DNA of 64,000 nt from Pseudomonas maumuensis. Lineage in GTDB: Bacteria; Pseudomonadota; Gammaproteobacteria; Pseudomonadales; Pseudomonadaceae. Below are positions 21,186 through 53,870 of this stretch, piece after piece (position 1 is the stretch's first letter; the number at the start of each line of letters is the position of its first letter). Both the position numbers and the translations under genes were made by a program. The notes below the pieces were generated by a model. The model was given only the letters and a program-made list of their open reading frames with translations. It was not told where the DNA came from and ran no database searches. The stretch lies in contig NZ_CP077077.1 of assembly GCF_019139675.1 (NCBI RefSeq), positions 3,224,001-3,288,000 of the forward strand, given 5' to 3'.

Positions 21186-24100
21186 TCAATCCTTGTCAGC
21201 AAGCCTCCCCACCAGCCCCTCGATAAACGCACCGGCATTGATAACCCCCTCATGCCCATCGGCAATCACCGTCGAACTGCCCAGCCCATTGACCGAAGCC
21301 TGCGCCAGCAACCCCGCCTCCCCCACGCGTACACGCTCGGCACTGCGGCTTTCACTGGCCCACCAGCAATCCACCTGGACCACCAGCGGCCGCAGGCGAA
21401 ACGCCTGGCTCAGCTCGGCGTTGCGGTCGAGCACGGCGAAGCCATCGACGATCTCCCGCTGCAGATGTACATCCTCGTGGATGCTGCGCAGGCGTTCGGC
21501 GCTGACATTACCCGCGGCGGCCACCTGTTCGATGACCCACTCGGTCCTGTCGACCCCGGCCGGCAGACGCTCGGCCTCGTCGATGAAACCTGCGATCCGC
21601 ACCTCGCCGACGCCCGGCGCAAAGGCCAGCAGGCCACGCAGCAGGCTCTCGTCCGCCCGCGCCACCTGCACCACCTCGGCGGGCTCGGCGTCGAGGCCAG
21701 ACACATCACGCGGCAGCAGGGTGTCGACCAGGCCAACGAAACCAACCTCCTGGCCGGCCTGCTCGAGGGCGTGGGCCACTTCCAGCGCCAGGGCGCCGCC
21801 CATGGACCAGCCCAGCAGATGGTACGGGCCGCTGGCCTGGGTACGGCGGATCTGCTCGACGTAATAGCCGACCATCGCCTCCCAGGATGCGTCCACCCAG
21901 CCCGGCTCGGCGTAGCACCGGTTGACCAGGCCATATACCGGACGCTCATCGGCCAGGCGGCTGGCCAGCGGGTAGTAGGCGTAGGCAGCGCCGCCACCCG
22001 GCGGCAGGCAGAACAGCGCCGGGCGCTGGCGCTGGCAACCGTTGAGATTGATCACCGGCGATTTCAGGCGATCCTTGCCGCCACCGATGAAGTTGGCCAG
22101 CTCCTCGAAGCTGGCCATCAGCATGAACTCATGCAGGCTGATGTTGATGGCGAAGGCTTCACGCACCTTGTTTACCAGGGTGATCACCAGCAGCGAGTGG
22201 CCGCCGAGCTCGAAGAAGTTGTCGTGCAGACCCACCTGCTCGACCTTCAGCACCTCGGACCAGATCGCCGCCAGTTGCTGTTCGAGTTCCGTACGTGGAG
22301 CTACGTAGCCCTGTTGCAGCTGGCTGGCATCCGGTTTTGGCAGGGCCTTGCGGTCCAGCTTGCCGTTGGCGGTCAGTGGCCACTGATCCAAGACCAGGAA
22401 GTGCGTCGGCACCATGTAGTCCGGCAGGTTGGCTTTCAGGTGTTGTTTCAGCGCGTCACGCAGGGTTGCGTGGTCTGCTGATGGATCTTGAGCGATCAGG
22501 TAGGCCGCCAATTGCTTGCCCCCTGCCCCGTCGATATCCAGCACCAGCACTTCGCGCACCGCCGCATGTTCTTGCAAGCGGGCTTCAATCTCGCCCAGTT
22601 CGATACGGAACCCGCGGATCTTCACCTGATGGTCGATCCGGCCCACGTACTCGATCACGCCCTGTTCGCGGTAACGCGCCAGGTCGCCAGTGCGGTACAA
22701 GCGTCCGCCTTCGCTGGAGAATGGATCCGGCACAAAGCGTTCGGCGGTCAGCGAGGCGCGGTTGTGGTAACCCCGCGCCAGGCCGGCGTGGCCGACATGC
22801 AGTTCACCCGTGCAGCCCTTGGCCACCGGATTGAAATCGGCGTCCAGCACGTACATCGACAGGTCCGGAATCGCCGCACCGATCGGGCTGCCCGACTGCT
22901 GGGTATCAGCGAAGCGGATCGGCCGGTAGGTCACGTGGACCGTGGTCTCGGTGATGCCGTACATGTTGATCAGGTTGTTGCACTCTTCGCCGAAGCGCTC
23001 GAACCATGGCTGCAGTGCAGCTACGTCCAGCGCTTCGCCGCCGAAGATCACGTAGCGCAGCGCAAGGTCGGAAGCACTGTCACAGGCCACGCGCATCAGC
23101 GGCTTGAACGCCGATGGAGTCTGGTTGAGCACAGTGACGCCCTGCTCCACCAGCAACTGGTGGAAATCTTCCGGCGAGCGCGTGGTTTCACGCGGCACGA
23201 TCACCAGGCGGCCACCGTGCAGCAGCGCGCCGAAGATCTCCCATACCGAGAAGTCGAAGGCGTACGAGTGGAACAGCGTCCAGACATCCTGCGGGCCGAA
23301 GCCAAACCAGGCGTCCGTCGCCTTGAACAGGCGCAGCAGGTTGTGGTGCGGCAGCAGCGTACCTTTCGGCTTGCCGGTGGAACCGGAGGTGTAGATCACA
23401 TAGGCCAGGTTGTCCGGCTGGGTCAGGTGCTCGGGGTTTTCGTCACTGTAATCAGCCAGATCATCTTCGAGAGACAGGCTGCGCACATGCGCCGGCACCG
23501 GCAAGGCCAGCAAATGGCCTTGCGTCAGCAGCAGTTGAATGCCGCTGTCTTCCATCATGTAGCTCAGGCGGTCCTGCGGGTATTCCGGATCCAGCGGCAC
23601 ATAGGCGCCACCGGCCTTGAGGATCGCCAGCAGGCCGACGATCATCTCGAAACCACGCTCCACCGCGATACCCACCAGCACATCCGGCCCCACGCCCTGC
23701 GCACGCAGCTTGTGCGCCAGGCGGTTGGCGCGGCGGTTGAGCTGGTCATAGCTCAACGCCTGCCCGGCGAAGGTCACGGCGATCGCTTCAGGCGTGCGCG
23801 CCGCTTGCTGCTCGATCAGCGCGTGCGCGCAGGCCATGCTCGGATAGCTGTCGATCACTTGTAGCGGCGCGGTGCTCAGCACCAGTTCACCCAAAGCCCG
23901 CTGCGACGAGTCCGCCAACCCTTCCAACAGTTCGACGAAATGTGCCGCGATCTGCCCAACAGCCGATTCGGCATAGCTGGCGCGGTCGAACTTGAAGTTG
24001 GCCAACAGTTTTTCGCCCACCTGGGCCACCAGCGTCAGCGGATAGTTGGTCTGCTCCTGGCTGGCCACCTCACCGAAGACCAGCCCCTGTGGTGCGTCTG

Positions 24101-53400: not shown

Positions 53401-53870
53401 AGATCGAAGGCCTGGGTGGCCTGGGCCGCCATTTGCTGGTGGGCGCGCTCCCAGCGCGTGGCCTCGGGCAGGTCGGCCAGGTCGAACAGTTGGATGCCTA
53501 CCTGCGTTGGCTCGGCCACCCGCTGCACGGCGCGCTCGCCGTCCTGGGCGAAGGTGGTGCGCAGGCATTCGTGGCGAGCGACCAGCACGGTGAAGGCCTG
53601 CTCCAGCGCCTGCACTTGCAGCTCGCCTTCCAGACGCACGGCCATCGGCAGGTTGTAGGCGGCGCTTTGCGGCTCCAGCTGCCAGAGGAACCACATGCGC
53701 TGCTGGGCGTAGGACAGGCCGTCGCGCTCGCTCAGGCCAACACAGGACGACATGGGCAACTGCGCGAAATCGATACCCTCGCGTCGCATCCCTTCAAGGA
53801 ACAAGCGACGCTTGTCCTGGGGCAACTCGATGAAACGGCGGGAAAGTTTCTGGGCGTCTGCGGCATTCAT
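50466..53870 (-). CDS. Pyoverdine side-chain NRPS, first enzyme: single C-A(Lys)-T module
   Basis: A 1,134-residue single-module synthetase. C domain about 50-490 (HHIIADG 182-188), A domain about 515-1020 (core YTSGSTGRPKG 667-677), T domain about 1035-1105 (LGGHSLL, Ser 1071), then an acidic tail (DTDDDWSDMDAFL). The code residues are D713, G714, E717, D755, H783, G785, T810, V818, V819, K1016, i.e. DGEDHGTVVK, the known Pseudomonas lysine code. It starts with a C domain and no loading module, so it must extend a chain made elsewhere: the expected donor is PvdL with the acyl-Glu-Tyr-Dab chromophore precursor. A perfect iron-starvation promoter lies 58-81 bp upstream. First gene of the NRPS operon. 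Confidence 0.9.
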   Translation of the reverse strand: MNAADAQKLSRRFIELPQDKRRLFLEGMRREGIDFAQLPMSSCVGLSERDGLSYAQQRMWFLWQLEPQSAAYNLPMAVRLEGELQVQALEQAFTVLVARHECLRTTFAQDGERAVQRVAEPTQVGIQLFDLADLPEATRWERAHQQMAAQATQAFDLERGPLFGIALLRLAPQEHVLLLTLHHIIADGWSMNVLIDEFMRSYDALVAGREPALAEIKVHYRDYALWQRSWLEAGERERQLDYWREQLGDEHPLLELPTDRPYPAQPSHLGERLELVLDSGLREDLKQLAQQHGVTLSTVLLAVFKTLLHRYSGQADIRVGGLIANRNRSETEGLVGFFVNTQVLRSQFSAQTPFSDLLRSLHQASVGAQAHQDLPFDALIEALQPQRSQSHTPLFQVMFNHQPLVTDLKDVRLDCGLRVGYLSAEQLAGSRRQHAATSDLMLDTREEGEQVFAAFTYATDIFDEATISALAGHWRNLLRAVCNDPRQRLGELPMLAEAERQALLCPVADVAPWEPVQRLFETQAARSGEALALILANGAEAPSMRYAELNARSNRLAHYLRRQGVGPDSLVGVALDRSLDLAVALLAVLKAGGAYVPLDLQAPSERLGHVLEDSGLQWLLTTSAQLPGLPAREAVRCLCLDQLPLADEPASDLPLTVVPDNLAYVIYTSGSTGRPKGVAISHGALSEFIARAIDYSDLREGDRVLQFATSSFDGFVEQFFPPLCHGACVVLRDTRLWDSAALHEVLIEHGVTLADLPAAYWYWLVQDFAARPPASYGALRQIHVGGEAMAVDGLRLWQLAGLGHVRLLNTYGPTEATVVSTIHDCTGLGHEAVSWRGIPIGQGLAQRRLYILDDDLELLPQGAVGELYIGGPGLARGYHGQPSLTAQRFVADPFAQGERLYRTGDRARLGADGAIEYIGRVDHQVKVRGFRIELGEIEARLQQCPGVREAVVLALPMAGGLQLVAYVVPDAAEQDAAEQARLRQQIRSLLKARLPEYMVPGHLLLLPRLPLTPSGKLDRKALPAPDPSALQAEYRAPQSAVEQQLAQIWMQVLNVPKVGLDDHFFELGGHSLLAAQVLARIKDQLGLVLPLRSLFEQPALGDLAAELARLQGGDTDDDWSDMDAFLGSLEGVEA

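Follow-up and report, generated by a model that had tools for sequence, protein, structure and literature searches.

A nine-module pyoverdine side-chain assembly line predicted in Pseudomonas maumuensis, a longer relative of the two-hydroxyaspartate type

The closest described relative of the system reported here is the pyoverdine of Pseudomonas syringae 1448a, for which tandem mass spectrometry (MS/MS) agrees with the side chain Lys-OHAsp-Thr-Thr-Ser-OHAsp-Ser, where OHAsp is β-hydroxyaspartate (PMC3207962). In that strain a gene whose product is 37% identical to SyrP stands beside fpv-region genes and before four side-chain nonribosomal peptide synthetase (NRPS) genes, and the two OHAsp residues, which fit the MS/MS ions, are proposed there to be its products (PMC3207962). 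The C terminus of the P. syringae pyoverdine is closed onto a Thr, the fourth residue from the end (PMC4219678). Here we describe a related locus of Pseudomonas maumuensis (assembly GCF_019139675.1, contig NZ_CP077077.1), which lies in a window of 64,000 nucleotides (contig positions 3224001-3288000); positions are those of the window unless the contig is named, and genome-wide searches covered the single 5.76 Mb contig. Judged from sequence, four NRPS genes spanning 21186-53870 and the hydroxylase gene upstream of them very probably form a pyoverdine side-chain line with the predicted product Lys-D-OHAsp-Thr-Gly-Thr-Thr-Lys-D-OHAsp-Thr, probably closed as a lactone on Thr6.

Modules, specificity codes and the predicted chain

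A preliminary description of this DNA had placed four contiguous NRPS genes in that interval, read nine adenylation (A) domains with their codes by hand and set epimerisation (E) domains behind the Asp modules only, all of which holds. The genes are open reading frames (ORFs) at just these positions, all on the minus strand and with no internal stops, and domain motifs divide them into nine condensation (C)-A-thiolation (T) modules with two E domains, both in Asp modules, and one terminal thioesterase (TE). An alignment script returned, for genes 1 to 4 in order, DGEDHGTVV; DLTKIGHVG, DFWNIGMVH, DILQLGVIW; DFWNIGMVH, DFWNIGMVH, DAEDHGTVS; and DLTKIGHVG, DFWNIGMVH. The script covers nine of the ten A-domain positions, the tenth being taken from the GKLD[RK] motif that carries the A10 lysine and occurs in 1, 3, 3 and 2 copies in proteins 1-4, nine in total. 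As a positive control, the same script was run on three P. syringae-type clusters (G212, G332, G114), for which it gave the published P. syringae 1448a codes of eight letters (PMC3207962).

The codes of Lys1, both Asp and the Thr modules are those of P. syringae 1448a, in which DGEDHGTV belongs to a Lys module with MS/MS support (PMC3207962), and the second Lys code, DAEDHGTVSK, is one letter off the DAEDHGTVTK of a P. fulva module assigned to Lys by amino-acid analysis and liquid chromatography (LC)-MS/MS (PMC12195549). Both precedents argue against one or both Lys modules loading Orn or a modified residue, which would yield a different nonapeptide. In favour of such a substitution, the DGEDHGTV module of P. 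syringae 1448a was not called Lys by a second predictor, the residue there resting on MS/MS (PMC3207962), and 3 mix-ups of Lys and Orn A domains are on record among 160 substrates (PMC11444679). We regard it as unlikely and take Lys/Orn confusion to be the main risk for our residue calls.

PvdL makes the acyl-Glu-D-Tyr-Dab start of pyoverdines (Dab, diaminobutyric acid) and, encoded elsewhere in the genome, would supply it here. Assuming colinearity, the chain would then grow by Lys from gene 1, by D-Asp, Thr and Gly from gene 2, by Thr, Thr and Lys from gene 3 and by D-Asp and Thr from gene 4, upon which the TE would free it. Both Asp residues would be β-hydroxylated by the TauD/SyrP-like enzyme encoded upstream, Fe(III) would be bound by the catechol chromophore and the two OHAsp without hydroxamates, and the C-terminal Thr, as in the lactone of P. 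syringae, is probably esterified to Thr6, the ester partly hydrolysing to a linear form. In its nine residues, their order and the D positions this chain is the one proposed in the preliminary description, which wrote both acidic residues as plain Asp where OHAsp is most likely, did not mention the hydroxylase and left ring closure unconsidered.

Iron ligands, ring closure and expected masses

The hydroxylase gene adjoins NRPS gene 1 on its upstream side and runs in the same direction. Inspection of its protein finds a proximal H164-N-E166 and a distal H358, which make up an HxD/E...H iron-binding triad; its start may be later than given, as many relatives align only from residue ~40-50. No second match to it was found in the host genome at E <= 0.001. 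Codes of the DGE(C/A)xGGV type, which we take to specify hydroxyornithine (OHOrn), are absent among the nine of the window. Because of this, and because a hydroxylase gene stands upstream of a line with two Asp-E modules, we predict two OHAsp as the pair of side-chain iron ligands, the hydroxylation of both Asp by this enzyme being most likely by analogy with P. syringae.

It might be argued that the line makes the same pyoverdine with both Asp left unhydroxylated, as first written, or with only one of them modified. Asp codes and E domains indeed say nothing on hydroxylation and the target of the hydroxylase is a prediction, yet its gene lies directly upstream just as in P. syringae 1448a, where the MS/MS data fit two OHAsp (PMC3207962). 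Without hydroxylation, moreover, the side chain would lack any usual bidentate iron ligand and the chromophore would be the sole one left. The two Asp modules are alike in code, and both have an E domain. We therefore consider under-hydroxylation quite improbable and keep to the chain with two OHAsp.

Three Lys/Orn N-oxygenase matches in the genome exceed the cut-off, one of them strong and located at a separate locus with a dihydroxybenzoate (DHB)-AMP ligase gene. This gene, at 2.85 Mb, was rejected as a source of OHOrn, standing as it does beside DHB-AMP ligase, TonB receptor and ABC genes with no OHOrn-type code in the window to match; it probably serves another siderophore. The surrounding region (contig 2836001-2864000) holds a second siderophore-like set made up of the DHB-AMP ligase, the Lys/Orn-type N-oxygenase, NRPS pieces, an ABC transporter and a TonB receptor, and resembles pseudomonine-type loci.

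As to the ring, P. syringae closes on a Thr four residues from the end and the window has a Thr at that place, so that a lactone on Thr6 is probable by analogy. Compared with six two-Asp clusters that do not belong to its own group (v388, G212, G332, G038, G414 and G161, the segment of the last being untrimmed), the window TE shows 47.2-54.5% identity, and compared with four clusters whose last code is OHOrn-type (G077, G308, P. gessardii, MN1F) it shows 26.3-31.2%.

Built on the chromophore ions of PMC8888394, by a calculation that reproduced the P. syringae 1141 ion (1141.43) as control, the computed [M+H]+ of the succinamide form is 1354.576 for the linear and 1336.565 for the cyclised chain, and that of the succinic acid form 1355.560 and 1337.549, respectively. 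With neither Asp hydroxylated, the linear succinamide form would be 32 Da lighter, at 1322.586. The b ions of the succinamide form are computed at 485.21, 616.24, 717.28, 774.31, 875.35, 976.40, 1104.50 and 1235.52. Chain, masses and fragment ions are predicted precisely enough for a check in one LC-MS run.

Genome context of the assembly line

The pyoverdine assignment, previously argued from a PvdS-type promoter and an adjoining fpv operon, is well supported by genes elsewhere on the chromosome. PvdL is present as a 4353-aa open frame that contains four C/E domains (contig ~1.874-1.887 Mb; 2623.8 bits to the PvdL structure 9lcp), PvdO lies at contig 3189382-3190131 with a PvdE-type exporter (TIGR01194) directly after it, and a TonB protein with an STN domain, by homology an FpvA-type ferripyoverdine receptor, ends at contig 3194615, ~50.6 kb from the NRPS genes. 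The presence of PvdL, together with the C domain at the start of the first window module, supports PvdL-dependent initiation. Promoter and operon were likewise recovered: a PvdS-type box, recognised by its pattern, precedes NRPS gene 1 with 57 bases between it and the start codon, and genes for which we assume the fpv names fill 55238-62573 (Table 1). Over the 64 kb window TAAAT-N16-CGT matches three times, against 0.29 expected in shuffles, the others being at 956-980 and 39553-39577; the latter sits within the last part of NRPS gene 2, shortly ahead of gene 3, and may be chance.

An origin of some other siderophore or a lipopeptide from this line could appeal to the fact that PvdL, PvdE and FpvA are not in the window itself. 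All of them, together with PvdO, are on the same chromosome however, the first module opens with a C domain, and fpv operon and PvdS box adjoin, so we regard a non-pyoverdine product as extremely improbable. Nor do the window's Asp or Lys codes occur in the other NRPS loci compared (2.25, 2.34-2.37, 2.84-2.86 and 2.95-2.98 Mb, the 8496 and 4895 aa ORFs at 2.60-2.64 Mb being outside this comparison), one of which, at 2.35 Mb, has a Thr code; another NRPS locus as maker of the side chain was rejected on these grounds. The two giant NRPS frames (contig 2604675-2640874) recall xantholysin in size and set-up.

Besides the cautions on Lys codes given above, several points weigh against the chain and ring as we draw them. 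The ring could be on Lys7 instead, a three-residue ring (Lys-FoOHOrn-Ser, FoOHOrn being the formylated OHOrn) being known (PMC8888394), or there could be no ring, and the window TE is less than 50% identical to the P. syringae-type TEs. A +71 Da pyoverdine species of P. syringae 1448a was left unexplained (PMC3207962). Of the chromophore maturation enzymes, PvdO was found and three PvdQ-family acylases are candidates for PvdQ, and pvdS was not seen among the ORFs beside PvdL in a Pfam scan of those ORFs only.

Immediately downstream of NRPS gene 4 lies an IS481-family transposase (19711-20994), with a short IS5-like fragment (18148-18765) behind it; the Pseudomonas mosselii LB-090624 contig introduced below likewise stops ~0.7 kb past gene 4. 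At 14686-16491 a protein with DUF2341, laminin-G-like and MotA/ExbB domains is encoded, with a Porin_5 protein and a PPIC rotamase as neighbours; the ExbB-like gene set so formed is unusual.

Table 1. Features of the pyoverdine locus in window coordinates; fpv names are our assumption and residues are predicted from codes.
Feature	Position	Strand	Basis
C-terminal thioesterase (approximate limits)	21189..22100	-	GWSMGG at 21812
NRPS gene 4: C-A(Asp)-T-E-C-A(Thr)-T-TE	21186..29849	-	ORF 2887 aa, motifs, code reading
E domain after second Asp module (approximate limits)	25130..26520	-	motifs at 26516 and 26156, next C motif 25130
NRPS gene 3: C-A(Thr)-T-C-A(Thr)-T-C-A(Lys, DAEDHGTVSK)-T	29830..39501	-	ORF 3223 aa, motifs, code reading
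NRPS gene 2: C-A(Asp)-T-E-C-A(Thr)-T-C-A(Gly)-T	39517..50469	-	ORF 3650 aa, motifs, code reading
E domain after first Asp module (approximate limits)	45800..47190	-	motifs at 47184 and 46827, next C motif 45798
NRPS gene 1: C-A(Lys, DGEDHGTVVK)-T	50466..53870	-	ORF 1134 aa, motifs, code reading
PvdS-type (iron-starvation) box TAAAT-N16-CGT	53928..53951	-	sequence pattern
TauD-family (SyrP-like) aspartate β-hydroxylase, 382 aa	54007..55155	-	Pfam TauD 5e-52
Two PepSY_TM proteins, fpvG/H-like (55238-56425 and 56447-57730)	55238..57730	+	Pfam
DUF6162 protein, fpv operon	57992..59143	+	Pfam
Periplasmic metal-binding protein, FpvC-like	59154..60065	+	best PDB matches 6ru4/6r3z, labelled 'probable adhesion protein'
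ABC ATPase, FpvD-like	60062..60808	+	homology
ABC-3 permease, FpvE-like, true start probably later	60649..61707	+	Pfam
Second ZnuA-type periplasmic protein, FpvF-like, start approximate (within ORF 60801-62573)	61692..62573	+	Pfam

Relatives, a natural module exchange and known systems

A hydroxylase match at E <= 1e-120 occurs in 94 of 398 genus genomes, our own included, and a second survey of 57 relatives added no genome beyond that search. NRPS genes were read beside 47 of these hydroxylase genes (18 from named records and a further 29 chosen mainly for complete or long contigs), with the motif scan missing some A domains so that most chains are incomplete, and with some genomes possibly being duplicates. 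Within this set the same nine codes recur once (G122), and the same plan with a Lys-type in place of the Thr module 6 likewise once (P. mosselii LB-090624). The seven-module P. syringae-type plan is present in six (v388, G212, G332, G114, G403, G038), two of them with Gly, and four more have two Asp-E modules among other residues (G161, G414, G064, G326), three of these with more than seven modules. As many as 33 carry a code either of the DGE(C/A)xGGV type that we assume to mean OHOrn (31) or DGEGSGGVT (2). For the remaining two (G202, G040) the reading gave no NRPS gene beside the hydroxylase.

Relatives with 84-89% identical hydroxylases were rejected as makers of this nonapeptide: in P. 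lini, P. mandelii and others the line continues from Lys-D-Asp into an E-bearing Thr module and has an OHOrn-type code; P. gessardii was rejected because its chain begins with Ser. P. soli LMG 27941, the closest of the named relatives by the hydroxylase search, with a protein 98% identical to that of the window, gave only a partial chain, Lys and D-Asp being read up to the contig end. Contig C15 of P. mosselii LB-090624 also encodes two distant TauD-family relatives, at 32085-32951 (36% identity) and at 46687-47619 (32%; within a 2053-aa frame).

The P. mosselii cluster (L115/L116) differs from those of the window and G122 in a confined manner. Its genes 1, 2 and 4 are 97.7, 96.6 and 95.1% identical to those of G122, and each is 92-94% identical to the window's. 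Compared with the window in 100-residue frames, its gene 3 is mostly 83-99% identical, falls to 30-77% at residues ~1400-2160 and then recovers, whereas gene 3 of G122 stays at 84-100% along the whole protein. The block of low identity runs from within the C domain of module 6 (~residue 1430) through its A and T domains. On the simplest reading of these alignments, a single exchanged block changed Thr to Lys at position 6 in the P. mosselii line, the direction following from the window, which as outgroup carries Thr. That the swapping of A-domain units drives diversity among NRPSs and pyoverdines has been described (PMC7486941). The incoming unit shares 77.9-78.6% DNA identity with three module-7 Lys units and 65.0-65.7% with three gene-1 Lys units, and so was not copied recently from within the cluster. 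The upstream breakpoint (L115/L116 vs L151/L152) seems to lie inside the C domain and not in the C-A linker.

In P. aeruginosa pyoverdine, too, the ring is closed four residues from the end, but through a Lys nitrogen. Position 6 holds this place in the window's chain and is the predicted ring-closing one, and the TEs of P. mosselii LB-090624 and G122 are ~91% identical to that of the window. We offer tentatively, and think rather doubtful, the idea that one natural module exchange replaced a macrolactone open to hydrolysis, the ring type predicted for the window and G122, by a stable macrolactam, the ~91%-identical TEs accepting either nucleophile. The three clusters present a clean natural module exchange in an otherwise near-unchanged synthetase, and the position exchanged may determine how the ring is closed.

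Among themselves, the four Thr A-T units of the window (genes 2, 3 and 4) share 90.2-93.4% DNA identity, while the orthologues that P. mosselii LB-090624 and G122 have of each are less similar to it (88.4-90.5%). Inside these two clusters, Thr paralogues are about as similar as orthologues. This hints at gene conversion among the window units.

The nonapeptide, which the preliminary description could not match to a pyoverdine, is absent from the pyoverdine tables consulted in PMC5187384, PMC8888394, PMC12195549 and PMC4219678, and a literature phrase search for Thr-Gly-Thr-Thr together with pyoverdin gave no match; the structure list of PMC11444679 was not covered. That paper reports 188 predicted pyoverdines with 151 predicted new structures, and the nonapeptide is quite possibly already among them. 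As the side chain decides which receptor takes up the iron complex, each new chain marks a Pseudomonas compatibility group.

How, then, does the line compare with known systems? G122, another species, has all nine codes identical, 92.9-93.7% protein identity and no predicted difference in the chain; P. mosselii LB-090624 has the same nine-module plan and four proteins 84.7-93.2% identical to the window's, but with DAEDHGTVC at module 6. More than seven modules are also found in G414, G064 and G326, in which the hydroxylase is present, Lys comes first, two modules are of the Asp-E kind and a TE closes the line, but which have five NRPS genes and other residues, including the code DGEDSTTIT and two terminal Gly codes. 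In Pseudomonas sp. v388 and in G038 the Gly code DILQLGV(I/V)W is as in the window or nearly so and two Asp-E modules are present, but the codes read Lys-Asp-Thr-Thr-Gly-Asp-Ser, two modules fewer and with a Ser end. Against seven-module relatives, identity is 65-72% for the best-matching C domains, compared in three of them, and 47-49% for the TE, compared in four. With P. syringae (1448a, B728a) the window shares the order of hydroxylase and four side-chain NRPS genes, with fpv-region genes beside the hydroxylase, and also, on our prediction, the plan of the product, which starts with Lys-OHAsp-Thr, has two D-OHAsp and neither hydroxamate nor, on our assumed code, an OHOrn module, and has its TE after a last D-Asp-X pair. 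It differs in that fpvA-like and pvdE-like genes are not beside the NRPS genes, and in having nine residues versus seven, with Gly and a second Lys added and Thr at the end. Since the line has nine modules where the P. syringae type makes a heptapeptide, we class its chain as a longer relative and distinguish it from that molecule; its chemistry would be that of the known two-OHAsp type, lengthened, and no new kind.

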